Position numbers and translations under genes: made by a program | NCBI RefSeq assembly: GCF_039994875.1 | Contig: NZ_CP121196.1 | Location: 372,001-436,000, forward strand | From: Telmatobacter sp. DSM 110680 | GTDB taxonomy: Bacteria > Acidobacteriota > Terriglobia > Terriglobales > Acidobacteriaceae | Length of the DNA: 64,000 bases | Direction: 5' to 3' | In this document: piece after piece, positions 39,023 through 52,161 of the stretch | Layout: each line of letters opens with the position of its first letter | How positions within the stretch are numbered: the first letter of the stretch is position 1 | Notes under the pieces: generated by a model | Seen by the model: the letters and a program-made list of their open reading frames with translations, nothing else | Told to the model about the DNA's origin: nothing | Database searches by the model: none

Positions 39023-39514
39023 GTGAGCAAGTCTCCGTCGAAGAAGAAAGAGCCGCCGAGTCTGGGTCGGAAGTATCTCGAGAAGCAATTGAAGAAGGAA
39101 GGTTATTCCCGTCGTGTGTCGGTGCCTATTCTGGACGCAATCTTCAAGGAGATGAGCGCGGCGTTGGCGCGTGGTGAAGAAGTGGAGTTCCCGCTGGGGA
39201 AGCTCAAAGTTGCACGGCACAAGCATCCCACGCAGACCGGCCGGTTTCTAAACCGGAAGAAGATGACCATCTACAAGAAGCCCTTTAAGGTTGTTCACAA
39301 GGTGAGTCCTAAAGCCGACCGATGCATCAATTTCGTGCCGATCGTGCTGCCGCCCAAGCCAGGATCGCCGCCGGGCGCGAAACGGATCGTTATTGATCCA
39401 TCATGGGCATTAATGATGCGACGGAAGAACCGGATCGTCCTTCCACCCAGGCCTTTCTTTGCCCCGCACCCGACTCGCTCGGTTGCCGACGTCTTGCGTC
39501 TTAAAGGTAAATAA
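39023..39514 (+). CDS. HU/IHF-like DNA-binding protein
   Basis: A 163-residue protein, GTG start. Residues about 12-95 show the HU fold: helices LEKQLKKEGYSRRVSVPILDAIFKEMSAAL, then the beta-arm start EEVEFPLGKLKVARHKHPTQTGRFLN and KKPFKVVHKVS. The C-terminal 60 residues are Pro/Arg-rich (PPKPGSPPGAKR, RRKNRIVLPPRP), likely an extra DNA-binding tail. It would bend DNA. The gene ends in GGTAAATAA, the first copy of an imperfect direct repeat, 115 bases before the left end of the composite element. Confidence 0.7.
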   Translation: MSKSPSKKKEPPSLGRKYLEKQLKKEGYSRRVSVPILDAIFKEMSAALARGEEVEFPLGKLKVARHKHPTQTGRFLNRKKMTIYKKPFKVVHKVSPKADRCINFVPIVLPPKPGSPPGAKRIVIDPSWALMMRRKNRIVLPPRPFFAPHPTRSVADVLRLKGK

Positions 39515-39628: not shown

Positions 39629-39657
39629 AACTGGTCCTGAACTCCCAGTGCTCCCGT

Positions 39658-39675
39658 GGGGGAACATGTTCCCCC
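39658..39675. repeat. Perfect 18-bp palindrome near the outer end of the left copy
   Basis: GGGGGAACATGTTCCCCC is fully symmetrical and lies 29 bases inside the outer boundary. The mirrored copy is at 51920-51937. It may be a binding site for an element protein (XRE or recombinase). Confidence 0.6.
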
Positions 39676-39916
39676 CTGCTTTTTGTGTGATTTTGTCCGG
39701 CAGATTGTTGAAGCTGATTTTGGCCGCCCCGGCTCAACAACAGGGTCGTTCTTTCTCCTCTAGGAACCGTGATCCGGATCATTCTCCTGACCCTGACCCC
39801 GATACGGAGAACAGGTCGTTTTCGATCCGGAAGACACCGGTGATCAACCTGACCCTGATCCCAGACGAGCTGAACGGAGAGCAGGGACAACCGGGACGAT
39901 TCCGTATAGCTCAGGG

Positions 39917-40384
39917 TCACAGGGAACAGAGGCCGGACAATATATATGGTGCGGAATCGCCGGCAAGGCTGATGTCCGGATGACCTGATGGTGAGCATAG
40001 GCTTGGGTCCCTCCCGCGCGCGCGAAAAATATGTTGTGCGCGGGGAGGAAGGGACCTGGTCTCATTCGCCAGGATGTCCAGCAGGCGTCCGGACACGGTG
40101 GTGAAGTTGCCCGCCTCACCTTCGAGAGCCCGAAGCCGTGCCAGCAGCAGGCTGAGGGGATAGTTGAACGAATCATCCATCACCCTTATGCCGGCGGTTG
40201 CAGTGGGCAGGGAAGCAAAGCTCTGGGCCTGCTGTTCGAGATTAAGCAGGGCGGTCTTGTCGAATGCTGATCCGCCGGACAGGTCTCCCGTGGCGATCGC
40301 GGTGTTCAGCAGATCGAGCAGCTTCTGGTAGTACTCGTGGGTCAGGGATGAGTTGCAGCCTCTTTGGTTGGACTCTTCCCGCAC
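39917..40384 (-). CDS. Element protein of unknown function (left copy)
   Basis: A 155-residue protein read outward from the left copy, GTG start; the in-frame region upstream contains no ATG. Residues 1-105 look like a helical domain (THEYYQKLLDLLNTAIATG, NYPLSLLLARLRALEGEAGN, VSGRLLDILANETR). The last 45 residues are Pro/Ser-rich. Identical to the gene at 51211-51678. It is divergent to the XRE-type gene, so both may be controlled from the same 76-bp region. Family unknown. Confidence 0.55.
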   Translation of the reverse strand: MREESNQRGCNSSLTHEYYQKLLDLLNTAIATGDLSGGSAFDKTALLNLEQQAQSFASLPTATAGIRVMDDSFNYPLSLLLARLRALEGEAGNFTTVSGRLLDILANETRSLPPRAQHIFRARGRDPSLCSPSGHPDISLAGDSAPYILSGLCSL

Positions 40385-40460
40385 CTCATACTGAGCTCGT
40401 AGGTAAATCCAGGCGAGCCCCTCTCACTTGACGGGCCGCCTTATCAGGAGTAATGAGTAA

Positions 40461-40751
40461 ATGAGTGATATTCGTAAGTCGTCTTCCCGGTCCCGTCGTA
40501 GCACCCCCTTCTACCGCCAAGCCTGGGGCCATCTGTTCGGTGGCCTTCTTCGTGATGCCCGGGAGGAAAGAGGCTGCTCCCTCGAAAATGCGGCCCAGGC
40601 GGCCGGGATGGAAGTAACGCAGTGGGAGGCCGTAGAAGCCGGCCAGGTTCCCGAGAACTGGGAGCAGGTCCACCGCATGGCCGACGGTCTGGGGATCGAT
40701 CGCAGTTGGCTAATCCCGCTCGTTCTGTTCTGCCACGAGGCCTGGGGCTAG
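40461..40751 (+). CDS. XRE-family helix-turn-helix protein (left copy)
   Basis: A 96-residue protein with a Cro/C1-type HTH at about 27-80: LLRDAREERGCSLENAAQAAGMEVTQW, then EAGQVPENWEQVHRMADGLGI. The N-terminus is short, basic and Ser-rich. AGGAG lies about ten bases before the ATG. It likely represses the element's own promoters, i.e. recombinase expression. Identical to 50844-51134. Confidence 0.8.
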   Translation: MSDIRKSSSRSRRSTPFYRQAWGHLFGGLLRDAREERGCSLENAAQAAGMEVTQWEAVEAGQVPENWEQVHRMADGLGIDRSWLIPLVLFCHEAWG

Positions 40752-40829
40752 TAACTTTCGGGGGCCGGGGTCTTCCGAGACTCTGGCCTTCATACTCATA
40801 ACCATATAGCCTCATCTCCTGAGAAGGAG

Positions 40830-41012
40830 GTGAGTCAGATTAAGAAGCCAACAGAACTGAAGGTGAAAAGAATGAACTTGAATGTACCCGTCGAACTCCA
40901 TAACAGCTTCAAGTCGGTCACAGCTGCCAAGGGCCAGGACATGACCACCGTGCTGATGGAGTTCATCACGAACTACGTCGCCAAGCACTCTCCCAAGGGG
41001 CGGCGTCGGTGA
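40830..41012 (+). CDS. Ribbon-helix-helix protein (ParG/CopG-like, left copy)
   Basis: A 60-residue protein, with a strand VKRMNLNVPVELHNSFKSVTAAKGQDMTTVLMEFI typical of ribbon-helix-helix DNA-binding proteins. The nominal start is GTG directly after AAGGAG, so spacing is unusually short; an ATG at 40872 is an alternative that would keep the fold. Its end overlaps the recombinase start by four bases. It would bind DNA as a dimer, for example near the recombination site. Identical to 50583-50765. Confidence 0.7.
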   Translation: MSQIKKPTELKVKRMNLNVPVELHNSFKSVTAAKGQDMTTVLMEFITNYVAKHSPKGRRR

Positions 41013-41608
41013 AACGCGCCGCTCTTTATATGAGGGTGTCGACCCTCGATCAGCGTCCGGAGAGTCAGTTGCATGACCTTCGGCAGATGGCAGCACAGCG
41101 CGGCTATGCCATCGTTAACGAATACACAGACAGGATCAGCGGCACCAAGGCTAAGCGGCCCGGGCTTGATCAGATGATGGCCGATGCCCGCCGCGGCCGC
41201 TTCGATGTAGTGATGACCTGGGCGAGTGATCGCATCGCTCGTTCAGTGAAGCACTTCCTGGAAGTGCTCGATGAGTTGAACCGGATAGGGGTCGAATACG
41301 TCAGCTTCCGGGAAAATATCGATACCGGCGGCCCGCTGGGCCGCGCGATCGTCGTAATCATCGGAGCCATCGCTGAACTGGAACGCTCGCTAATCGTCGA
41401 GCGAGTGCGTGCCGGCATGCGGCGGGCACGGCTGGACGGCCAACGCATCGGCCGAACTCCTCTGGTCCTCGATACCGTTGCGATCAAGCAGGACCGCGAA
41501 CGTGGACAAAGCCTGAGGCAGATCGCCAAAGAGCACCGTGTCTCGACAGCCACGATACAGCGCGTGCTTCATCGGCACGCTCTCACCACGCAGGAGCAGG
41601 TCGCATGA
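41009..41608 (+). CDS. Serine recombinase, resolvase/invertase family (left copy)
   Basis: A 199-residue protein of the Tn3-resolvase/Hin-invertase size class, GTG start. The catalytic domain has AALYMRVSTLDQ with the nucleophile Ser11, then YTDRISGTKAKRPGLDQMM, TWASDRIARSVKHFLEVL, FRENIDTGGPLGRAIV and the long E helix IAELERSLIVERVRAGMRRA. The C-terminal HTH is SLRQIAKEHRVSTATIQRVL. It recombines two copies of a short site by double-strand breaks with a 2-bp overlap. Overlap with both neighbours indicates an operon. Identical to 49987-50586. Confidence 0.92.
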   Translation: MKRAALYMRVSTLDQRPESQLHDLRQMAAQRGYAIVNEYTDRISGTKAKRPGLDQMMADARRGRFDVVMTWASDRIARSVKHFLEVLDELNRIGVEYVSFRENIDTGGPLGRAIVVIIGAIAELERSLIVERVRAGMRRARLDGQRIGRTPLVLDTVAIKQDRERGQSLRQIAKEHRVSTATIQRVLHRHALTTQEQVA

Positions 41609-41874
41609 TCGAACAAGCAACAGACTTCTTGCCGGTATGGATGGTACTGTCGGCTGCCTTCGGCTTCCTGGCCGGCGAGGCTTGCGGCGGCCAGACTCGT
41701 CTTCGGAAATATCTCGAGCAGGCTAACGCAGATCTTCGCGATCAGCTTCGCAGGGCTCAGCCGCCTTGCGATCCAACGGTGCAACAAGCACTCGCTCAGC
41801 AGCGCCGCGTCATCAACGACATCCACAAACGCGTCGCCGCTGTGACAAAAGGCTTCGAAAAACCCGCCTCGTAA
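41605..41874 (+). CDS. Small membrane/coiled-coil protein (left copy)
   Basis: An 89-residue protein. A hydrophobic N-terminal segment (FLPVWMVLSAAFGFLAGEACGG) could be a membrane helix, followed by a helical Gln/Arg/Glu-rich part (RLRKYLEQANADLRDQLRRAQ and VQQALAQQRRVINDIHKR) that would form a coiled coil. The ATG overlaps the recombinase stop codon. A role in the element is likely but unknown. Identical to 49721-49990. Confidence 0.65.
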   Translation: MIEQATDFLPVWMVLSAAFGFLAGEACGGQTRLRKYLEQANADLRDQLRRAQPPCDPTVQQALAQQRRVINDIHKRVAAVTKGFEKPAS

Positions 41875-41890
41875 ATCCCATCAAATCAAT

Positions 41891-41912
41891 GGCCGGATCT
41901 CACGATCCGGCC
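41891..41912 (+). terminator. Inner-end hairpin of the left copy
   Basis: Perfect 9-bp stem GGCCGGATC / GATCCGGCC with a TCAC loop, just after the last element gene. It likely ends the recombinase operon. The mirror copy is at 49683-49704. Confidence 0.65.
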
Positions 41913-42039
41913 GTATCAAAAGGTGTGGGTTGGGATACGCAGAGGACGGTGAAAGATCCGCGAACAACTCTCCAGCCCTTCAGAGACCAGATGCCGACGC
42001 GTTTGGTATACGATCACACTCGATGCAATCTGATCGCGA

Positions 42040-42780
42040 TCAGTTCTCAGTTTGTAGATCCGAGCTCCACATTAGCTTCATTTTGGCACCAAGATGCTCC
42101 AATGCTTCGGGGGTGTCCAAGTTGTAGAGCGGAAACGTTTCGACTCCAGCGGGTAGTACGCAGCAAAGCTGGCGGCCATCGGTCCTTTTAGCGCCGACAT
42201 TGCTCTTCACCGTTGCCTTCGTCGTCAGCTTAGAGCCTCTGGTAAGGTTGGATCCTCCGAGTGCTCTAGGAATCCTCTTCAGAAGGGATTTGCGCACTAT
42301 AAATACCTCTTTGGCGTCCCAAGATTTGTTCGCGACTGTCCAGTGATTCATAACCGCGTATTGAACCTGCGGCTCAAAGGAATCGCGCATTTGTGGGTCG
42401 TACATAACGATTCTCACCGCGAGCAGAGGTTGGTTAGCTCCGATCTGGGCTGGGATTCCTTTCAGTGGTTTGTGATCCAGCTCTTCCTCTGGCTCATCTC
42501 CCTCATCCTCTATCTCATCCTCATCTTCATCACCCTCGTCGTCTTCACCTATTGCAGGTGAGAAGAGTGCGCCATACTCGTTCCGAATAATCCGACGTGT
42601 CTGGTCCCGACCTGCTTTGCCAAACACACCAGCCAAAAACGCCAAGGAATTTGGCTCCTCAGCCAGTCGATCGCGCAGTCCGGTGATAAGCCGGTCAACC
42701 TCGCGGTAGAGATGATGGGTACTTGCGATCGTAGAAGCAACTGCTGATGCGAATTCTTCACGTGTTATCGTGTTGCTCAT
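42040..42780 (-). CDS. Cargo protein of unknown function
   Basis: A 246-residue protein starting MSNTITREEFASAVAST. A helical N-terminal part (to about 75) is followed by a strongly acidic linker (EDDEGDEDEDEIEDEGDEPEEE) and a globular C-terminal region with LLAVRIVMYDPQM and QVQYAVMNHWTVANKSW. No catalytic motif is recognised. The acidic linker suggests protein or DNA mimicry, but this is speculation. It follows the nuclease gene closely, with a 15-bp gap, so the two form an operon divergent from mcrB. It may be a partner subunit or inhibitor. Confidence 0.6.
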   Translation of the reverse strand: MSNTITREEFASAVASTIASTHHLYREVDRLITGLRDRLAEEPNSLAFLAGVFGKAGRDQTRRIIRNEYGALFSPAIGEDDEGDEDEDEIEDEGDEPEEELDHKPLKGIPAQIGANQPLLAVRIVMYDPQMRDSFEPQVQYAVMNHWTVANKSWDAKEVFIVRKSLLKRIPRALGGSNLTRGSKLTTKATVKSNVGAKRTDGRQLCCVLPAGVETFPLYNLDTPEALEHLGAKMKLMWSSDLQTEN

Positions 42781-42795
42781 GTCCAGCACACTTTC

Positions 42796-43947
42796 TTACG
42801 CTCTTTCTGAAGAGCGCCAGGAAAGAATTGCTTGTTGGGCAGTCCCAGCTAAAATCTGGGGACTAAAGATATAGCGAAAATCTCGTCCTGCCACGCTCCT
42901 AGGCATGCCCCAGCAAAGTAGCCTTTCTGGCTGAACCGGCGCGGTCTTAAACGCACTCTGAAAGCGCAACCCAAGTTGGGCAGCTCGTACACTCCAACCA
43001 CGGAGGCGCCAAGAGAGAGGTGTTTGTCGGGCAATCCCTACCAGAACCTCCGGACTAAAGATATGACGAAATCCCTGCCCCACCACGTTTCTTGCCAAGC
43101 CCCAGCAAAGCAGCTTTGCTGGCTGAACGGGCGCCGGCTTAAACGCACTCTGGAAGCGCAAACCAACATGCGCAGCGCGTACACGCCAACTACAAATCCG
43201 GAACAAATCAGTCCCCGGCGAATGCCACTGTGAGAACCCGCTGAACGTATCTAACCCGCAGAGTCGAAGGTACTCTTTAAGATCTATCTTCCAACCTCGA
43301 CTCGCGGCGGGCTTGACTTTTAAGTCTCTAAACAACGATTGCCAGGTTCTGAGGTTTAACGTGGCATTTGCGGGAAGAAACTGTTTTGACTCTTCAATCT
43401 CGCGGAGAGCGCGACGTTGGCGTCGAGCATCGACAAGAAAGACCTGAATAACCTGGCACTCACGAATTGCGCATTCTATTGGCTCAGCATACTGGATGCG
43501 CTCCGAAACGGGCCGCACGATGGACTGATACTGGCGAACCAGCTGATCGCTGGTCCGTTCGTCAACCTCTGGTTTGAGAGCTAAGTCATGCCGATCTGAC
43601 CGAAATTTAGCTTCGACAATGACCAGAGCATCTCCTAATCGAAAGACGACGTCGGGTTCTGCGAAAGCTAAGCGCGGCCAAAACCAATACTCAAGGAGGG
43701 GAATGTTGAGCCAGGATCTTTGAGGAACGCCTAACCAATTCTCCAAAAGCTTCCAGTCCTCTGCCCAGAAGATCGCCCCAAACACAGTAGATGTCAGGGT
43801 GTCCTCGAGTCTCTGCGGTTCGGGATTGGACTCGTCAAGCTTCCCATGTAGAAGCGCATGCAGCATCGCCCGCAAGTTTACATCACGAGAAAGGCCCCTT
43901 GAGGTCACGAGATCAAATAGTCGCAGAGAGCATTCGATCCCTCCCAA
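42796..43947 (-). CDS. PD-(D/E)XK nuclease-like protein with two C-terminal repeats
   Basis: A 383-residue protein, TTG start with GGGAGG-like context unclear. Around residue 98-115, FAEPDVVFRLGDALVIVEAKF shows the PD...E-x-K pattern of restriction-endonuclease-like folds, followed by YQSIVRPVSERI and a helix. From about 254 the C-terminus is made of two 64-residue repeats: VRAAHVGLRFQSAFKPAP and VRAAQLGLRFQSAFKTAP mark their starts. The repeats are close to perfect at protein level, arguing that they are coding. The gene is divergent to mcrB and probably belongs to the same restriction unit. Confidence 0.7.
   Translation of the reverse strand: MGGIECSLRLFDLVTSRGLSRDVNLRAMLHALLHGKLDESNPEPQRLEDTLTSTVFGAIFWAEDWKLLENWLGVPQRSWLNIPLLEYWFWPRLAFAEPDVVFRLGDALVIVEAKFRSDRHDLALKPEVDERTSDQLVRQYQSIVRPVSERIQYAEPIECAIRECQVIQVFLVDARRQRRALREIEESKQFLPANATLNLRTWQSLFRDLKVKPAASRGWKIDLKEYLRLCGLDTFSGFSQWHSPGTDLFRICSWRVRAAHVGLRFQSAFKPAPVQPAKLLCWGLARNVVGQGFRHIFSPEVLVGIARQTPLSWRLRGWSVRAAQLGLRFQSAFKTAPVQPERLLCWGMPRSVAGRDFRYIFSPQILAGTAQQAILSWRSSERA
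42811..43194. repeat. Two 192-bp direct repeats inside the nuclease gene
   Basis: The block starting at about 42811 and the block starting at about 43003 align along 192 bases (exactly 64 codons), e.g. CTTAAACGCACTCT occurs at 42946 and 43138. Differences are scattered, so the duplication is not very recent. Confidence 0.75.
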
Positions 43948-44142
43948 GTTGTCAGTGATGGATCAGTCGCAGACATTCTATTTCCACATCGCTGATAACA
44001 ATCGACTACGGTCCAGCATCATTAGAGCGACGAAAGCTGTATTTGCCCGATCGTGGTCGTGCGATATACTCGCCCTTCCCCTTGATCGTGAGATTTCGCG
44101 AAGCCAAGAATGAGAGTGCGGCGCTTGGCAAGGCGGCGGTAT

Positions 44143-46671
44143 ATGAATACATCGTATGGAGACTGGCTTCGCGATAGATTCGAAGCCGGAACAGTGTCAA
44201 CTCAACTCGCCGAAGCGCGTCGACTCGAGGATGCGTATGGTGACCTTGACGAGAACTTTGATCGTGATGATTTCGACTCAATGCTCGCAGAGTTGGCATA
44301 CTCTTCCCTCGACAAGAAAGCCGAGAAACCTAACCCCTCGCGCATACCCATTCAGGGAAATAGGCTCTACGAAAACCTCGCTCACCTTCGAACGGCGCTC
44401 AATTACTATCGTCGATTTCGCGCTCACTTGGACGCCAAGAAGGGGGTTGAAGACTGGCCGCAGCTGGAGAGGATGCGTACACGGTTCCTTGCTATTTGTC
44501 CCGACTTCATCGATTTCGAGCAGAGGAAGGGCTTTTATTTTGAACAGGAGAGAGCCTATAAGGATGACTTGATTGGCCAAGCTCAATCGATTTTAAGCGG
44601 CCATCACGAGGAACAACCAGAGAAACTCGGAGGCCAATTCCTCGACCTAGTGAAGAAGTCTAATTTCGTCGGATGGCGAGCTTTCGATGCAATAGCGAAA
44701 GGTGGAGCTGACGCGAGGAAAGAAACTGCACAAGCTCTGGGCGAAATGTTGTTGTCAAAAGAGAGCTTGCCTGCCGTAATCGAGACTGCCGCTCTCAGGA
44801 TCCACCCGATACTCCGCTCGGACAACAATCCTGCCATTGGCCTTGTTCGGTCCCTTGTGACTTCGGCAATTGCATTAGCCAAGCCCAAAGATGCGATCAG
44901 CGTCAAAACTCTTTCAATGCAGGCGGCAATTAAGGAATTGACCGGGGACACGATTATAAAGTCAGCGGTAATCAGTGCCCATGAGTATGAAGCGATCCTC
45001 CAGATTGCCCTTCGTATCAGCGACAGAATGGTCGAGTGGAACTGGAAGCCGCGCGATCTTTGGGATGTACAGGGTTTCCTTTGGGTTGCGACAAATTATG
45101 GCAAAGCGCCCGTTCTGGCCGAAGGTGGCGCCTTAATCGAAGACGATGAGGATGATGATCGAATGACTGGAAAACAATTCATTCCGCTGAATCAGATACT
45201 CTTTGGGCCCCCGGGAACCGGCAAGACGTGGGCGACAGCCCGGCTCGCAGTCGAAATATGCAACGGGACTGCTCCGGATGACCGAAAGCAACTAAGGAAA
45301 GAGTACGACGAACTGAGGAGAGCTAATCGAATTACCTTCACCACGTTCCATCAATCGATTGGTTACGAGGAGTTCGTCGAGGGTCTCCGTCCAGTCACCG
45401 AAAATGAAGATGAAGAAGATCAGGCTCCTGCTGGTTTCCATCTAGAGACCCGCCACGGCATTTTTCGTAACATCTGCACCCTCGCTGAACAGGCACGAAA
45501 ACGAGGCGGAAAAGCGGCCGCATTCGATTTCACAAAACGGCAATTCTTCAAGATGTCCTTGGGGCGTGCGAGTACCGAGAGTCATATTTATCAGGCGGCA
45601 ATCGCGGGAAACTATATCGTCCTAGGTTGGGGTGGAGACCTTGATTGGTCGGACACAAAGTACGACGACTTTCAAGCCGTGTTCGATCGGTGGCAAGAGA
45701 AAGAACCAGGCACAAGCGGAAACAGCGGCAATATCGCACAGACGTGGTGTTTTCGATCGCTTATGAAGAAGGGCGATATTGTGATTGTCTCAAACGGTAA
45801 CCGCCGCTTTCGTGCGGTTGGTGAGATCTTAGGTGATTACGAATTCGTGCCACAAGGAGAGGGCGGCAATCATCGCCGCGTCGTGAAATGGCTCGCCGTA
45901 ATCAAAGACTCCTTGCCAATTGAGACCATTTATGACGGCAATCTCTCGCAGGTTACATGCTATCGGTTGGTAAAGAGCCGTATGAAGCTCGAGGCCTTAG
46001 CTGGTCTGGTCACTGCAGATGCTCAACCTATGTCATCGAGCGCTGAGCCATACGTCTTAATTATTGACGAGATTAACCGCGCAAACATATCCAAGGTCTT
46101 GGGAGAATTGATAACCCTAATCGAACCAGATAAGCGGCTCGGAGGGCAAAATGAGATCACTGTAACGATGCCGTATTCCAACGACGACTTTGGAGTTCCT
46201 AACAACCTATACATAGTCGGCACGATGAACACGGCGGATCGTTCAATTGCACTTCTTGACACAGCGCTTCGTCGCCGCTTCCACTTCACCGAAATGATGC
46301 CCGACTACAGCTGTCTCAACAGGCAGGTAGAAGAGATTCACCTTGGCAAACTCTTGGCCGCGATCAATCGGCGGGTTGAATGGCTATTCGATCGTGATCA
46401 TCAAATAGGACACAGCTATTTCACGGATGTCGAGAGCAAAGCAGACCTCGATCACGTAATGCAGGCGAAGGTAATCCCGCAGTTGGCGGAGTATTTCTAC
46501 GAGGACTGGGAGAAGGTGCGTGCAGCTCTCAATGATACGAACGAGGCGTTCATTAAAGTGACCAAACTCGGTCCACCAAAGATGCTTCAATCTGATGGGG
46601 AGGACCGGTCGCACTATTCAATCCATATGGGAGAGATTCCGTCTGAAGGATACGTCACGGCATCGGAGTAG
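44143..46671 (+). CDS. mcrB: McrB-family AAA+ NTPase with an EVE-like insert
   Basis: An 842-residue protein; the frame also extends to an ATG at 44110 with an unlikely Arg-rich start. Residues about 1-345 are helical with no known domain. The AAA+ part has Walker A FGPPGTGKTWA (Lys361), Walker B VLIIDEINRANI (Asp642-Glu643), and the McrB signature GTMNTADRSIALLDTALRRRF. Between Walker A and B, at about 466-610, lies a beta-rich insert (KMSLGR, NYIVLGWGGDLDWSD, GDIVIVSNGNRRFRAVGEILG) resembling an EVE/PUA-like domain that reads modified bases. McrB forms GTP-driven hexamers and drives McrC to cut modified DNA. mcrC starts three bases after its stop. Confidence 0.88.
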   Translation: MNTSYGDWLRDRFEAGTVSTQLAEARRLEDAYGDLDENFDRDDFDSMLAELAYSSLDKKAEKPNPSRIPIQGNRLYENLAHLRTALNYYRRFRAHLDAKKGVEDWPQLERMRTRFLAICPDFIDFEQRKGFYFEQERAYKDDLIGQAQSILSGHHEEQPEKLGGQFLDLVKKSNFVGWRAFDAIAKGGADARKETAQALGEMLLSKESLPAVIETAALRIHPILRSDNNPAIGLVRSLVTSAIALAKPKDAISVKTLSMQAAIKELTGDTIIKSAVISAHEYEAILQIALRISDRMVEWNWKPRDLWDVQGFLWVATNYGKAPVLAEGGALIEDDEDDDRMTGKQFIPLNQILFGPPGTGKTWATARLAVEICNGTAPDDRKQLRKEYDELRRANRITFTTFHQSIGYEEFVEGLRPVTENEDEEDQAPAGFHLETRHGIFRNICTLAEQARKRGGKAAAFDFTKRQFFKMSLGRASTESHIYQAAIAGNYIVLGWGGDLDWSDTKYDDFQAVFDRWQEKEPGTSGNSGNIAQTWCFRSLMKKGDIVIVSNGNRRFRAVGEILGDYEFVPQGEGGNHRRVVKWLAVIKDSLPIETIYDGNLSQVTCYRLVKSRMKLEALAGLVTADAQPMSSSAEPYVLIIDEINRANISKVLGELITLIEPDKRLGGQNEITVTMPYSNDDFGVPNNLYIVGTMNTADRSIALLDTALRRRFHFTEMMPDYSCLNRQVEEIHLGKLLAAINRRVEWLFDRDHQIGHSYFTDVESKADLDHVMQAKVIPQLAEYFYEDWEKVRAALNDTNEAFIKVTKLGPPKMLQSDGEDRSHYSIHMGEIPSEGYVTASE

Positions 46672-46673
46672 AC

Positions 46674-47921
46674 GTGAAAACCATAAGTATTCGAGAGCAT
46701 CAGACGATCGCAGTTGGAGGGGTGATGGATGGCCCGCATCTGACGGTGTGTGAGTGTGAGGCACTCGATCGCGCTCAGCGCTCTCTTGGCGTCCAAGCCT
46801 TCCGATGGATTTCACGAAACCAGATCAAGGTTGCCCAATTCGTCGGTATGATTGCGGCTACCGATGTCAGATTGGAAATCCTTCCCAAAATTCACGGGCT
46901 CGGAGAGGGTGATACCAGGCGGGTGTTGATCGGCATGCTCGGCATAGCTCTCGATGTGCCGGTCCGCGACGGCGACGTAACTGGCCATGAGTATCAGAAT
47001 TGCGATCTTCTTGAACTGCTAATAGATCTGTTCGCACGTAGACTCAGGGAGAAAATTCGAGCCGGCCTATCTAGAGCTTACTCTCAGCACGAAAGCGATC
47101 TCAGCTATTTGCGTGGCAAGCTGGCTGTCACGCGTCAATTTTCAATTCTGGCTGCAAGCCCGCATAGGCTTGCTTGCCGATACGATGAATTCACAGCGGA
47201 CACTGTTCTCAATCGGCTACTTTTATGTGCTGTTACCTTCTTGAGGCGCCGATCTATTCGCGCCGGCACGCAGCGATTACTGAATGAGATCGCAGCCCAT
47301 TTTGAGGACGTTCGTTCTGCAACGGTCTCGGATGTCTTGAACGAGTCCTTCGTCATAGATCGGGGCAATCGGGACTGGGAGATTCCTGCAAGGTTGGCCC
47401 GTCTGTTGCTTTCCGCCACATGTCAGACTACCCACGGCGGAATGCGCGACGGTGTTGCCTTACTCTTCGACATGAATCTTCTGTTTGAGTCCTATGTAGC
47501 AGCGTTCGCTCGCAAGGTATTCACTCCACTCGGTTACAAGGTCCGAGCTCAATGTCCGATGCGGTGCATGGTGAAAGACGAAAAAGGTAAAAATCTGTTT
47601 CACACCAGACCCGATTTGCATGTGGAGCGCGATGGGCAAGTGGTGGTGTTCGACACAAAATGGAAACATATAAATCCAAGGCAAAGTAACTTCGACATAC
47701 TGCAAGCGGATGTCTACCAAATGTACGGTTACGCGCACATCTATTCGAGCCAGAATACCGTTCTCCTGTATCCGCATATACAGGAAACATCTAGGCAGCC
47801 AGGCTTGCAATCGTCTTGGACGCTTCAATCACATGGTGGCCGTCTGACAATTGCCACAATCGACATTACAAAACCGGCGATGCTTGCCACTTCGCTGACG
47901 GAATTGTTGGCCGCAAGCTGA
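46674..47921 (+). CDS. mcrC: McrC-family nuclease subunit
   Basis: A 415-residue protein, GTG start two bases after the mcrB stop. The N-terminal McrB-contact region includes VGMIAATDVRLEILPKI and YLRGKLAVTRQ. The C-terminal PD-(D/E)XK nuclease has RPDLHVERDG (Asp314) and VVVFDTKWK (Asp327, Lys329), followed by DVYQMYGYAHIY, which is typical of McrC. It supplies the cutting activity of a type IV, modification-dependent restriction system; with McrB it would limit methylated or hydroxymethylated phage DNA. Confidence 0.92.
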   Translation: MKTISIREHQTIAVGGVMDGPHLTVCECEALDRAQRSLGVQAFRWISRNQIKVAQFVGMIAATDVRLEILPKIHGLGEGDTRRVLIGMLGIALDVPVRDGDVTGHEYQNCDLLELLIDLFARRLREKIRAGLSRAYSQHESDLSYLRGKLAVTRQFSILAASPHRLACRYDEFTADTVLNRLLLCAVTFLRRRSIRAGTQRLLNEIAAHFEDVRSATVSDVLNESFVIDRGNRDWEIPARLARLLLSATCQTTHGGMRDGVALLFDMNLLFESYVAAFARKVFTPLGYKVRAQCPMRCMVKDEKGKNLFHTRPDLHVERDGQVVVFDTKWKHINPRQSNFDILQADVYQMYGYAHIYSSQNTVLLYPHIQETSRQPGLQSSWTLQSHGGRLTIATIDITKPAMLATSLTELLAAS

Positions 47922-47956
47922 GGTATCAAAACATTGCCGCTCGAGGAAAATCCATA

Positions 47957-48288
47957 ATGCACTTTTCGAGATTTCACCTCATGTTTTCACAATCAGAAAT
48001 TTGCACTTGGGCTGACCTATATCCATTCGGGTGGGACACGGAAGCGCTTCAGGCCGGCTCGAACATTCGAGCAGGAGACTTCTGCCAACAGCATCTTAAG
48101 ATAATCGCCAGATGGAAGTCACCGCGCCCACTAGGGCTGATCAAAGAAAACCTTGATTCCGAGATCTCCGGTGTTCTGAGTTTGCCTCTTAAGATGAAAC
48201 AGCCTAGGAGAGCGCCTTTGCAGTACTTATGGGATTGCGCGGAGTCGGAGTGCCCAAAGGTGACGAAAGAGCAGGGAGAGGGGGATAG
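47957..48288 (+). pseudogene. Truncated, frameshifted HhH DNA-glycosylase-like gene
   Basis: From ATG 47957 the frame reads a small N-terminal region with TWADLYPFGWDTEALQ, then HLKIIARWKSPRPLGLIKEN. At about 48212 the sensible sequence moves to another frame: SAFAVLMGLRGVGVPKGD, a helix-hairpin-helix (GLRGVGVP) motif, ending at a TAG (48286-48288). Full-length relatives as I recall them are about 240 residues, so the 3' half is missing. The frame shift and truncation make it a pseudogene. Confidence 0.55.
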
Positions 48289-48467
48289 GAGAATGTAATT
48301 ATGTTGAGTTTCGTCGCTGAGTTTAATCATCCGCGGAAGTCGGCTGGTAATTCAGCGTCACGCACACTCTCCGGAAGCTCGCACGTTGGCGCCTTTTGTC
48401 GGACGGTGATGTACATACCACTGGATTACTTCTCCGATACGTGCGTTGATTCGAGAAGAGAAACGCC

Positions 48468-49490
48468 CTAGGCTTCGGTCGTCTCCTCATTGAATTTCGA
48501 CCATGGAATTTCCTTAAGTCTGTTCGCAAGCTGTTCCGCCTCCTTCACCTGAAGCCAACTGACATCAAAGTACCTTTTGCTGTTGTACATTCCGCCTGGG
48601 CTATCCTTGCGGCAATCGGTATCGTAAAGTGGGCCGAGAAGGAAAACGCGCGTCGGAAAGACCCCCGGCCGAAGGTCATGAACCTTTGTCATTGCAAGTT
48701 TCTTGAGTTCCTCCTTGGCGCGGGAAACGTTCTGCCATTTCACCTTGGCCATGTCGACACCTTCAACGTCGACAACCGCTTCTATTAGGGCAACTCGCTC
48801 TATGCGCTTTTCCCTATACATGCCGAAATATTTACAACGAATATGACTGTACGCCCCACTGGTTGCTGGGCACATGTACACCCTACCGACGAGCACATCG
48901 TCCGGCAGCCCAGCACAATTCACTACGTCGAGCCGTCTCTCCCAGGACGGAAGTAACTCCTGCTCGTCGAGGTAAAGTCTGAATTCTGCGACGGCGTCGT
49001 CGAGATTCTTCGGAAGGTGGGGGAGTTTTAGCGCAAGAACAAAGTCCTCGAAGGAAACCTCCTTGAAAAGGATCGAGCCCTTATATTTTCTGGCGCATAA
49101 ATCGTGTATATTAGCGAATTTCTTTCTCTCTTCAGACTCAAAGTTGGATAGCGCAACGAGAACTTTAAGGCCTCGGTCCTCGCTGTCAAGCGCAGCCAAG
49201 TGCTGCGCAAGCTGCTCATCGTAGAACCAATTCCAGTTCTTTGTCTCAATGTAGATTGTGAAAGCGGGCTGCAGGACAAGGCCGTCTGGGATGGCTGAGC
49301 CTTTACGAACCTGTTGACGAAACCGCACTCCGATTTGATCGCCAAGCTCTTCGCCGACCAGCGTAGTCATCACTTCCGCAAGGAACTTCGGGTTTTCCTC
49401 GTAGAGCATCTTTAGAAGGAGCAAGCAGTAGTTGGTCGTGCGGTTTTCGCCTTGAGAATAGCCTGAAAAGAGACTGATTGCCCTGCTCAT
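48468..49490 (-). CDS. Probable PD-(D/E)XK nuclease of the cargo
   Basis: A 340-residue protein starting MSRAISLFSGYSQGENRTTN. Around residue 65-95 the motif AIPDGLVLQPAFTIYIETKNWNWF gives the D...E-x-K core of a restriction-endonuclease-like fold, with a Gln-His helix (EQLAQHLAAL) after it. The C-terminal 160 residues form another domain (VGRVYMCPATSG, VALIEAVVDVEGV, VFPTRVFLLGP) of unknown type. The ATG at 49490 is chosen over the frame start at 49535 because the conserved start lies here. It is transcribed towards the mcrBC genes and is likely part of the same defence unit. Confidence 0.7.
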   Translation of the reverse strand: MSRAISLFSGYSQGENRTTNYCLLLLKMLYEENPKFLAEVMTTLVGEELGDQIGVRFRQQVRKGSAIPDGLVLQPAFTIYIETKNWNWFYDEQLAQHLAALDSEDRGLKVLVALSNFESEERKKFANIHDLCARKYKGSILFKEVSFEDFVLALKLPHLPKNLDDAVAEFRLYLDEQELLPSWERRLDVVNCAGLPDDVLVGRVYMCPATSGAYSHIRCKYFGMYREKRIERVALIEAVVDVEGVDMAKVKWQNVSRAKEELKKLAMTKVHDLRPGVFPTRVFLLGPLYDTDCRKDSPGGMYNSKRYFDVSWLQVKEAEQLANRLKEIPWSKFNEETTEA

Positions 49491-49682
49491 GTCATTGGTC
49501 CTATATTGCGTTTTAAACGGAATGGCGCCGTCCAAACTCAGTTTAGTCCTGCCAATTCAGAGCCATGAGCGGGTTTAGTAATAAAAAAGCGCCCATTCTA
49601 TCCGGGAACGCGTGTTCACCGGTGCAAAATGTCCGTCGAATAGTTCTTGATGGCTTGTCTCATAACCCACACCTTTTGATAC

Positions 49683-49704
49683 GGCCGGATCGTGAGATCC
49701 GGCC
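49683..49704 (-). terminator. Inner-end hairpin of the right copy
   Basis: Mirror of the hairpin at 41891-41912, stem GGCCGGATC / GATCCGGCC, downstream of the right copy's coiled-coil protein gene. Confidence 0.6.
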
Positions 49705-49720
49705 ATTGATTTGATGGGAT

Positions 49721-49990
49721 TTACGAGGCGGGTTTTTCGAAGCCTTTTGTCACAGCGGCGACGCGTTTGTGGATGTCGTTGATGACGCGGCGCTGCTGAG
49801 CGAGTGCTTGTTGCACCGTTGGATCGCAAGGCGGCTGAGCCCTGCGAAGCTGATCGCGAAGATCTGCGTTAGCCTGCTCGAGATATTTCCGAAGACGAGT
49901 CTGGCCGCCGCAAGCCTCGCCGGCCAGGAAGCCGAAGGCAGCCGACAGTACCATCCATACCGGCAAGAAGTCTGTTGCTTGTTCGATCAT
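49721..49990 (-). CDS. Small membrane/coiled-coil protein (right copy)
   Basis: Identical to the 89-residue protein at 41605-41874: one hydrophobic N-terminal segment and a helical, Gln/Arg-rich tail. Its ATG overlaps the recombinase stop by four bases. Being the gene nearest the inner end, it faces the nuclease gene at 48468-49490. Confidence 0.65.
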   Translation of the reverse strand: MIEQATDFLPVWMVLSAAFGFLAGEACGGQTRLRKYLEQANADLRDQLRRAQPPCDPTVQQALAQQRRVINDIHKRVAAVTKGFEKPAS

Positions 49991-50586
49991 GCGACCTGCT
50001 CCTGCGTGGTGAGAGCGTGCCGATGAAGCACGCGCTGTATCGTGGCTGTCGAGACACGGTGCTCTTTGGCGATCTGCCTCAGGCTTTGTCCACGTTCGCG
50101 GTCCTGCTTGATCGCAACGGTATCGAGGACCAGAGGAGTTCGGCCGATGCGTTGGCCGTCCAGCCGTGCCCGCCGCATGCCGGCACGCACTCGCTCGACG
50201 ATTAGCGAGCGTTCCAGTTCAGCGATGGCTCCGATGATTACGACGATCGCGCGGCCCAGCGGGCCGCCGGTATCGATATTTTCCCGGAAGCTGACGTATT
50301 CGACCCCTATCCGGTTCAACTCATCGAGCACTTCCAGGAAGTGCTTCACTGAACGAGCGATGCGATCACTCGCCCAGGTCATCACTACATCGAAGCGGCC
50401 GCGGCGGGCATCGGCCATCATCTGATCAAGCCCGGGCCGCTTAGCCTTGGTGCCGCTGATCCTGTCTGTGTATTCGTTAACGATGGCATAGCCGCGCTGT
50501 GCTGCCATCTGCCGAAGGTCATGCAACTGACTCTCCGGACGCTGATCGAGGGTCGACACCCTCATATAAAGAGCGGCGCGTTTCAC
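49987..50586 (-). CDS. Serine recombinase, resolvase/invertase family (right copy)
   Basis: Identical in all 199 residues to the protein at 41009-41608, including the nucleophile Ser11 in MRVSTLDQ and the C-terminal HTH. Both copies look intact and could be active. Two intact recombinase genes in inverted units would allow either copy to drive inversion of the cargo. Confidence 0.92.
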   Translation of the reverse strand: MKRAALYMRVSTLDQRPESQLHDLRQMAAQRGYAIVNEYTDRISGTKAKRPGLDQMMADARRGRFDVVMTWASDRIARSVKHFLEVLDELNRIGVEYVSFRENIDTGGPLGRAIVVIIGAIAELERSLIVERVRAGMRRARLDGQRIGRTPLVLDTVAIKQDRERGQSLRQIAKEHRVSTATIQRVLHRHALTTQEQVA

Positions 50587-50765
50587 CGACGCCGCCCCTT
50601 GGGAGAGTGCTTGGCGACGTAGTTCGTGATGAACTCCATCAGCACGGTGGTCATGTCCTGGCCCTTGGCAGCTGTGACCGACTTGAAGCTGTTATGGAGT
50701 TCGACGGGTACATTCAAGTTCATTCTTTTCACCTTCAGTTCTGTTGGCTTCTTAATCTGACTCAC
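50583..50765 (-). CDS. Ribbon-helix-helix protein (right copy)
   Basis: Identical to the 60-residue protein at 40830-41012; the same uncertainty about the start applies, the alternative ATG being at 50723. Overlaps the recombinase gene by four bases. Confidence 0.7.
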   Translation of the reverse strand: MSQIKKPTELKVKRMNLNVPVELHNSFKSVTAAKGQDMTTVLMEFITNYVAKHSPKGRRR

Positions 50766-50843
50766 CTCCTTCTCAGGAGATGAGGCTATATGGTTATGAG
50801 TATGAAGGCCAGAGTCTCGGAAGACCCCGGCCCCCGAAAGTTA

Positions 50844-51134
50844 CTAGCCCCAGGCCTCGTGGCAGAACAGAACGAGCGGGATTAGCCAACTGCGATCGAT
50901 CCCCAGACCGTCGGCCATGCGGTGGACCTGCTCCCAGTTCTCGGGAACCTGGCCGGCTTCTACGGCCTCCCACTGCGTTACTTCCATCCCGGCCGCCTGG
51001 GCCGCATTTTCGAGGGAGCAGCCTCTTTCCTCCCGGGCATCACGAAGAAGGCCACCGAACAGATGGCCCCAGGCTTGGCGGTAGAAGGGGGTGCTACGAC
51101 GGGACCGGGAAGACGACTTACGAATATCACTCAT
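50844..51134 (-). CDS. XRE-family helix-turn-helix protein (right copy)
   Basis: Identical to the 96-residue protein at 40461-40751, first gene of the inward-pointing operon. It would repress both copies in trans. Confidence 0.8.
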   Translation of the reverse strand: MSDIRKSSSRSRRSTPFYRQAWGHLFGGLLRDAREERGCSLENAAQAAGMEVTQWEAVEAGQVPENWEQVHRMADGLGIDRSWLIPLVLFCHEAWG

Positions 51135-51210
51135 TTACTCATTACTCCTGATAAGGCGGCCCGTCAAGTGAGAGGGGCTCGCCTGGATTTACCTACGAGC
51201 TCAGTATGAG

Positions 51211-51678
51211 GTGCGGGAAGAGTCCAACCAAAGAGGCTGCAACTCATCCCTGACCCACGAGTACTACCAGAAGCTGCTCGATCTGCTGAACACCGCGATC
51301 GCCACGGGAGACCTGTCCGGCGGATCAGCATTCGACAAGACCGCCCTGCTTAATCTCGAACAGCAGGCCCAGAGCTTTGCTTCCCTGCCCACTGCAACCG
51401 CCGGCATAAGGGTGATGGATGATTCGTTCAACTATCCCCTCAGCCTGCTGCTGGCACGGCTTCGGGCTCTCGAAGGTGAGGCGGGCAACTTCACCACCGT
51501 GTCCGGACGCCTGCTGGACATCCTGGCGAATGAGACCAGGTCCCTTCCTCCCCGCGCACAACATATTTTTCGCGCGCGCGGGAGGGACCCAAGCCTATGC
51601 TCACCATCAGGTCATCCGGACATCAGCCTTGCCGGCGATTCCGCACCATATATATTGTCCGGCCTCTGTTCCCTGTGA
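51211..51678 (+). CDS. Element protein of unknown function (right copy)
   Basis: Identical to the 155-residue protein at 39917-40384: helical N-terminal domain, Pro/Ser-rich tail, GTG start with no ATG available upstream in frame. It is read outward from the right copy. Confidence 0.55.
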   Translation: MREESNQRGCNSSLTHEYYQKLLDLLNTAIATGDLSGGSAFDKTALLNLEQQAQSFASLPTATAGIRVMDDSFNYPLSLLLARLRALEGEAGNFTTVSGRLLDILANETRSLPPRAQHIFRARGRDPSLCSPSGHPDISLAGDSAPYILSGLCSL

Positions 51679-51919
51679 CCCTGAGCTATACGGAATCGTC
51701 CCGGTTGTCCCTGCTCTCCGTTCAGCTCGTCTGGGATCAGGGTCAGGTTGATCACCGGTGTCTTCCGGATCGAAAACGACCTGTTCTCCGTATCGGGGTC
51801 AGGGTCAGGAGAATGATCCGGATCACGGTTCCTAGAGGAGAAAGAACGACCCTGTTGTTGAGCCGGGGCGGCCAAAATCAGCTTCAACAATCTGCCGGAC
51901 AAAATCACACAAAAAGCAG

Positions 51920-51937
51920 GGGGGAACATGTTCCCCC
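51920..51937. repeat. Perfect 18-bp palindrome near the outer end of the right copy
   Basis: GGGGGAACATGTTCCCCC, the mirror copy of 39658-39675. Confidence 0.6.
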
Positions 51938-52161
51938 ACGGGAGCACTGGGAGTTCAGGACCAGTTAGCAGGGAAATTAGGAATCCTAGTATATCGACTT
52001 ACTCGATTTGTCCCGGATTGACTCCATCAGACGTCGAAAACAGGAATTGCTCATCTTCAACTTTCCCACCGACCAGGTTGTCTACGCGAAAACGTTCGCC
52101 TGTTCAAACGTCAGTCCACCTTTCTTTCTTTCTTTTCACGCAGGGCTCTCTGAGACGTGAT

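Follow-up and report, generated by a model that had tools for sequence, protein, structure and literature searches.

The small serine invertases Hin, Gin, Cin, and Pin act on the Salmonella H, phage Mu G, phage P1 C, and e14 P segments, respectively, and in systems of this type the enzyme gene lies next to a site, as it does in the elements described here. To our knowledge, serine-invertase segments span one to a few kilobases (kb) and serve to switch promoters or tail-fibre genes. The global invertase Mpi of Bacteroides fragilis switches promoters, and the phage P1 C segment has long inverted repeats, of about 0.6 kb, which can be likened to the arms reported below; unlike these arms, the P1 C repeats hold no invertase gene and belong to a single locus of tail fibres. 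Here, we analyze a 64,000-nucleotide stretch of the Telmatobacter sp. DSM 110680 chromosome (the window; contig NZ_CP121196.1, positions 372,001 to 436,000), in which two identical, inverted arms of 2303 base pairs (bp) enclose a cargo that includes McrB and McrC genes. This element, E1, and its relatives are, in our reading, probably large invertible gene cassettes run by a Gin/Hin-type invertase, whose arms are gene-converted inverted duplicates.

In passages of the source papers, Hin is described as inverting about 1 kb between two 26-bp hix sites, with HU aiding loop formation (PMC3798978), and the e14 P segment as measuring 1797 bp (PMC12529663). Compared with the known segments of about 1-2 kb in these passages, the cassettes found here range from about 1.7 to 25 kb across elements, carry the enzyme gene in both arms, and hold whole accessory operons, not promoters or tail-fibre genes. 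The shared features are a small Gin-type serine recombinase, two inverted 26-bp dyad sites with a 2-bp core (by sequence, in the five elements of this chromosome, E1 to E5; the element G032 of another genome does not fit), and an HU-like gene nearby, HU being the protein whose role those passages describe for Hin. The arrangement was not found among the papers listed in searches of open-licence PMC, and the claim of an earlier sequence-only reading of the window (the original prediction) that this is no standard element type is upheld.

The two E1 arms are reverse complements of each other at 2303 of 2303 bases (mirrored coordinates sum to 91595; Table 1), and the repeat is maximal, with divergence beginning immediately at both flanks. 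Base-by-base alignment bears out the two identical inverted copies of the original prediction, and the translations of its five protein pairs (155 amino acids (aa), XRE, ribbon-helix-helix (RHH), recombinase, and 89 aa) are indeed the same. The repeat is far beyond chance and is no isolated assembly slip, because the same chromosome has four more inverted pairs. Domain scans identify the predicted recombinase module, with a resolvase-size serine recombinase, an XRE-type helix-turn-helix (HTH) protein, and a ParG/Arc-like RHH protein. Between the arms, McrB and McrC are likewise recognized by their domains, and the two further PD-(D/E)XK nucleases that had been proposed are not: the match of one is partial and weak, and the other has none.

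The genome is a single contig of 5,987,865 bases, and searching it with the E1 unit DNA and the recombinase protein reveals five inverted arm pairs, of which E1 is the pair in the window. Within pairs, the arms are 100% identical in E1, E3, and E4, 99.57% in E5, and 95.8% over 2385 bp in E2 (2058 bp of which are identical). Between pairs, they are about 70-78% alike, over almost the whole arm for E1 and E2 and mainly over the inner 0.7-1.2 kb for the others. All ten close recombinases (69-99%) lie within these five inward-facing pairs; no close solitary copy was found in the genome, and two distant recombinases (34%) lie elsewhere in it. A constant outer end of the unit was considered and rejected, since agreement of outer ends is limited to subgroups (one is common to E1 and E2). 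The 2303-bp unit had been taken for a mobile element with two clean ends, which it does not resemble, because its inner end falls within a site-like motif running into the cargo and its outer end differs between elements. Altogether, this is a family of cassettes, and the unit is an inward-facing arm, not an insertion element.

The recombinase combines a Resolvase catalytic domain with a C-terminal HTH (Pfam), and its closest PDB sequences are those of Gin invertase (expectation values (E) of 1e-25 and 4e-25), followed by Tn3 resolvase (1.4e-17). It aligns to Gin over the RVST and DRxxRS stretches, which we take to be those of the catalytic Ser/Arg motifs, and these motifs are retained. Among the phage relatives listed, which are 38-39% identical, most are annotated as DNA invertases. 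The NCBIfam model PRK13413 (Mpi) matches at 49.5 bits, far below its cut-off of 272, and is outscored by CcrB (93.8 bits, cut-off 900) and XisF (72.4 bits, cut-off 375) through the shared catalytic domain. Unlike a Tn3-type resolvase system, the elements have no directly repeated bounding sites; those of E1 to E5 face each other. A virus or plasmid origin was rejected, as no IMG/VR relative was found and all plasmid (1409 records) and phage (136) relatives are below 60% identity. The HU-like gene outside the left E1 arm has counterparts just outside the right E2 arm and, in G216b, G202a, and G193, on the outward side of the site at a distance of 1.8-2.9 kb; it may belong to the system.

The inner arm ends carry an imperfect two-fold motif of 26 bp (12+2+12), which reads GTNNCANAASST, core RT, RSSTTNNNNNAC. 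It is present at 10 of 10 borders in this chromosome, its half-sites agree at 7-9 of 12 positions, its core is GT or AT, and all ten sites retain TT at positions 18-19 and a final AC. By sequence, the bounding sites of E1 to E5 face each other with the same 2-bp core within each pair. Arm identity stops 4-11 bp short of the end of the site in E1, E3, E4, and E5, and in E2 it runs on for 3 bp beyond that end, such that in four of these five pairs the site extends into cargo sequence, which is not the same on left and right. Derived from these sites, the exact pattern occurs 11 times in 6 Mb, namely at the ten arm ends and once inside E4. With up to two mismatches, we obtained 27 rows (17 distinct places), compared with 14 rows for a control pattern read backward, and the extra places include a cluster, F, of four sites at 1.248-1.256 Mb. 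In ten genomes, at up to one mismatch, there are 41 pattern rows and 10 control rows; G181 has 12 matches, G242 four (two per element), G114 three, G124 two, and G017, in which no recombinase was found at E 1e-45, one. No site at this threshold was found in G200 or G153, which lack a recombinase at E 1e-60.

None of 151,924 reversed positions scores above 14 bits with a matrix built from 21 sites, and a first matrix, from 11 sites, recovered the two ends of each of G119a and G114 and a single end of each of L058 and L060 without having been trained on them. When each element was left out in turn and only the cargo half of the site (positions 17-26) was scored, all 34 sites, from 17 pairs, ranked in the top 0.7% or better of their own sequence (p from 7.8e-6 to 6.1e-3; left and right are equal in six pairs). 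In addition, the cores agree in 17 of 17 selected inward-facing pairs (GT in 12, AT in three, AA in two), which was reached in 2 of 100,000 shuffles; this count omits G175, G124b, the internal sites of E4 and G114, and the G181 site at 41082. The G124b cores are AC and AC, or GT read on the other strand.

Each arm carries an invertase operon reading inward (XRE, RHH, invertase, and in some elements the small protein) and ends at a hairpin and the predicted 26-bp crossover site marking the border between arm and cargo. In the reaction that we propose, the facing sites would be brought into synapsis, cleaved with a 2-bp stagger, and rejoined after subunit rotation. Because the two sites face each other, this would be expected to invert the whole cargo (7.7 kb in E1) and leave the arms in place as inverted duplicates held identical by gene conversion, possibly with assistance or regulation by the HU-like, XRE, and RHH proteins. 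We infer from these sequences that the enzyme cuts the 26-bp sites, that cassettes invert in cells, and that the invertase flips, and perhaps exchanges, whole cassettes of 1.7-25 kb. About 8 kb of cargo (77-90% by piece) is common to E3 and E4, and homology between the left arm of E3 and the right arm of E4 extends outward (69-72% over 1.1-1.6 kb). Relative to this arm, the common cargo is therefore reversed; the reversal fits inversion by the enzyme or by RecA.

Counting the present genome, recombinase matches occur in 26 of 150 family genomes at E 1e-45; at E 1e-60, the counts are 15 of 80 for the genus and 30 of 219 for family genomes with a completeness of 95% or more. The three positive genomes in a phylum sample of 396 all belong to this family, and the named records among close relatives come from metagenome-assembled genomes of Acidobacteria, Acidobacteriaceae, and Granulicella. 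In G032 (one contig), both recombinases are paired in inverted arms that are 100% identical over 2525 bp; in G119 (one contig), two of three are paired, the third being a 61% relative. Inward-facing pairs were also found in G114 (arms 87%), L057/G273 (80%), G215, G216b, G242 (two), and G305. G181 also belongs to these, having two cassettes with the recombinase at one end; a site pair without recombinase frames one cassette in G124 (G124b), and G038 has a 31-bp inverted partner of the arm end. The G242 contigs start 140 bp before the end of the repeat, which we read as expected when an assembler collapses identical arms. Seventeen further loci are uninformative on pairing, with contigs that end 2-7984 bp inward of the arm.

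Several observations weigh against the invertible-cassette reading. Eight of nine other recombinases (G030, G015:C42, G049, G051, G119b, G297, G300, and G089b, mostly more divergent) have no inverted partner in the stretch examined, and the idea that the arms are always paired was rejected on this account. The controls read backward are not empty in the ten genomes, and G119, with two pattern matches that are both arm ends, has three control matches. G032 has paired arms and 0 pattern matches at up to one mismatch; its border is a different sequence, which lies wholly within the repeat and, apart from the hairpin, shows no strong 12+2+12 dyad. The sites outside the five pairs of this chromosome were chosen because they fit the motif, and the agreement of cores partly follows from arm homology. 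The second G175 site has a different core (AT, as opposed to GT), and an internal match resembling the site, with core TG, occurs in G114. At the borders, neither an invertible promoter nor a split gene was recognized that would account for what inversion changes. Finally, inversion is read here from assembled sequence, with the E3/E4 orientation as indirect evidence, and that orientation could also reflect RecA acting on identical arms.

The contents of the cassettes bear on a second reading, which we hold to be possible without being probable. In this reading, which is compatible with the favored inversion and somewhat integron-like, the elements form a capture platform whose enzyme would recombine sites on different molecules, such that cassettes are excised, exchanged, and inserted, with inversion as a side reaction. 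In its support, cargo is almost wholly different between elements whose arms are related; in the five pairs of this chromosome it is of the McrBC, surface/signalling, stress, and polysaccharide kinds. E1 carries McrBC; E2, CsgG-like and PD40 proteins; E3 and E4, AsmA and other genes; E5, capsule/polysaccharide genes, a large serine recombinase, and a ParB/RepB-like protein; G032, a Thoeris-like system (ThsB matches); G114, G181, and G038, Fic genes; G242b, AcrB-type efflux; G175, RND-type efflux (by eye); G215, GH127; G119a, a TonB receptor; and L057, a winged-helix/TPR regulator and a PEP-CTERM protein. G114 and G181 each have a Fic gene (78.6%) directly inside a site, and its neighbors differ between the two. 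Sites free of recombinase frame the cassettes F1 and F2 of the F cluster as well as G124b, and tandem cassettes are divided by a site-hairpin-site junction in F and in G181 (44393/44454). E4, moreover, has its internal site about 110 bp before the cargo shared with E3. Against capture, no circle, empty site, or pair with the same arm and different cargo was seen, and few of the loci compared have cargo in common, a rarity that would fit either wide exchange or independent assembly.

As to empty sites, which the original prediction had proposed to look for, 20 kb around E1 was compared with 59 genus genomes, and neither the left flank nor the McrBC cargo was matched among the matches listed; these do include relatives of the gene right of E1, a putative alpha-galactosidase according to the original prediction. 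The left flank of F was matched in 7 other genomes out of 78, with homology ending at the gene end, and its right part had no match in the stretches fetched (two of those contigs end early). The right flank of E3 had no match in 78 other genomes at E 1e-30. The same inventory of cargo speaks against defence as the defining trait, the cargo of the five inverted pairs being mostly non-defence. A defence-only island was rejected: known defence genes occur in E1 (McrBC) and G032 (Thoeris-like), with Fic genes in G114, G181, and G038, and the other cargos are not obviously defensive (some proteins scanned).

A third reading, which we consider unlikely, takes the arms as passive inverted repeats, i.e., one module duplicated with its neighborhood, kept alike by RecA conversion, and rearranged by homologous recombination only. 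Conversion is indeed clear in two elements. Outward from the site, E2 is 100% identical over 2058 bp and then falls to 91, 73, 58, and 62% per 100 columns, and G032 is 100% identical over 2525 bp and then 78% over 388 bp. Because the fall from 100% is abrupt and leads to sequence that is still homologous, these two pairs are older than their identity, and gene conversion would be its simplest cause. In E1, E3, E4, and E5, identity falls to unrelated sequence, so recent duplication of the arms is possible there. The earlier suggestion that perfect identity reflects recent duplication or conversion stands. The G114 (70-98%) and L057 (62-89%) arm profiles are diverged. A tree of 44 recombinases joins the left copy to the right one in eight of nine pairs, the exception being the right copy of G114, which groups with G217.

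Passive repeats would also accord with the single-copy appearance of other relatives, with a reversal of E3/E4 made by RecA, and with the G032 border, which lies outside the site pattern. They account poorly for two further results: in four of the five pairs of this chromosome, identity ends inside the motif and the remainder outside the repeat also fits it, and similar sites frame cassettes that have no long arms (F1, F2, and G124b). The composite transposon of two insertion-sequence-like units that was first proposed, which two inverted copies around passenger genes would suggest, is very improbable, given that the five loci show no target duplication, the abutting direct repeats being 0-2 bp long (the left outer end of E2 not being sharply defined), that no outer end is common to all five, that no DDE transposase domain was found in the arms (Pfam, NCBIfam), and that the genome has no close solitary copy.

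If invertible cassettes are also captured, they might constitute an integron counterpart in Acidobacteriaceae, in which a duplicated Gin-type invertase captures, shuffles, and flips accessory operons at 26-bp sites; we advance this tentatively and with some doubt. The cargo of such a system would comprise defence, efflux, polysaccharide, Fic/toxin-antitoxin, and regulator genes, and its tandem and recombinase-free cassettes would be served in trans, a combination that as a whole we find just as doubtful. It would resemble integrons in its unrelated accessory cassettes framed by short sites, sometimes in tandem, and differ from them in using a serine instead of a tyrosine recombinase and in having inverted, not direct, bounding sites. 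As with Mpi, one enzyme serving several sites is conceivable for F1 and F2.

It seems that a phage-type invertase has here been recruited to frame entire operons, and a single chromosome has five cassettes of this kind. They are likely overlooked by short-read surveys: one published method, as described in passages of PMC5903667, discards multi-mapping reads and so misses inversions between long repeats, and many of the draft contigs here stop near the arms. The cassettes bear on what recombinases beside defence genes do, a question raised in the abstract of PMC12529663, and, if they also exchange, they would offer environmental bacteria another route to assemble defence and metabolic islands.

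Table 1. Features of E1 (window coordinates) and arms of the five inverted pairs (contig coordinates)
Feature	Position	Strand	Basis or remark
Left arm, 2303 bp, recombinase module reading inward	39629..41931	+	exact inverted copy of 49664-51966
Right arm, 2303 bp, recombinase module reading inward	49664..51966	-	exact inverted copy of 39629-41931
Predicted 26-bp crossover site, left; last 7 bp in cargo	41913..41938	+	motif/border analysis
Predicted 26-bp crossover site, right; last 7 bp in cargo	49657..49682	-	motif/border analysis
Hairpin, 9-bp stem, abuts left site	41891..41912	+	
Hairpin, 9-bp stem, abuts right site	49683..49704	-	
Serine recombinase, DNA-invertase type, 199 aa, left	41009..41608	+	Pfam Resolvase and HTH_38; nearest PDB sequences Gin 4m6f/3uj3
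Serine recombinase, right	49987..50586	-	identical to left copy
RHH (ParG/Arc-like) protein, left	40830..41012	+	domain scans
RHH protein, right	50583..50765	-	inverted copy of left
XRE-type HTH protein, left	40461..40751	+	domain scans
XRE-type HTH protein, right	50844..51134	-	inverted copy of left
89-aa small protein, left	41605..41874	+	membrane helix and coiled coil suggested by eye; no family above cut-off (Pfam, NCBIfam, PHROGs)
89-aa small protein, right	49721..49990	-	inverted copy of left
155-aa divergent open reading frame (ORF), left arm	39917..40384	-	conserved in E2 (79%); no family (NCBIfam, PHROGs)
155-aa divergent ORF, right arm	51211..51678	+	inverted copy of left
HU-like gene just outside left arm	39023..39514	+	Pfam PF00216, 22.9 bits, cut-off 22.4
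Cargo: acidic 249-aa protein	42040..42789	-	no significant family (Pfam, PADLOC, NCBIfam, PHROGs)
Cargo: 383-aa protein	42796..43947	-	weak, partial PADLOC match to PDC-M15A (E 7.5e-8, residues 28-115)
Cargo: McrB	44110..46671	+	AAA_5; weak PRK11331 (114.9 bits, cut-off 637)
Cargo: McrC	46674..47921	+	PF10117 above cut-off
Cargo: 355-aa protein	48468..49535	-	no match in Pfam, PADLOC, NCBIfam, PDB sequences, PHROGs
E1 arms, left/right	411629-413931/421664-423966		
E2 arms, left/right	about 1292486-1294664/1304691-1306935		
E3 arms, left/right	5543077-5545569/5570712-5573204		
E4 arms, left/right	3925000-3927096/3948637-3950733		
E5 arms, left/right	3427838-3430180/3452479-3454821		

Further observations concern single elements. 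An RNA element search of Rfam gave no match at gathering score. The E1 arms have a perfect 18-bp palindrome near their outer end (window 39658-39675 and its mirror), with related palindromes at the matching position in E2, and a tandem 188-bp duplication (78%) lies within the 383-aa cargo ORF (window 42814-43193). The internal site of E4 is at contig 3937707-3937732, and the 118 bp just inside it are an inverted copy (76%) of the sequence just inside the left E4 site, which suggests that E4 may have a cassette of its own as its left half. A large serine recombinase gene lies about 2.4 kb outside the right E4 arm (L020:10121-11614). In the E5 cargo, the large serine recombinase stands beside the ParB/RepB-like protein (L021:14845-17336), possibly as a nested integrated element.

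The F locus (contig 1248649-1256126; L097/L024) consists of the tandem cassettes F1 and F2, each framed by inverted hairpin and site and sharing the junction between them. No recombinase was found near them, and by eye they contain a GGDEF-like protein and a winged-helix/TPR regulator. Genes at cassette edges were also looked at by eye for a consistent outward reading, an idea dropped as inconsistent. Large regulator-type proteins lie near a cassette edge in E2 (beta-propeller), E3 and L057 (winged-helix/TPR), and, by eye, F2 and G181.

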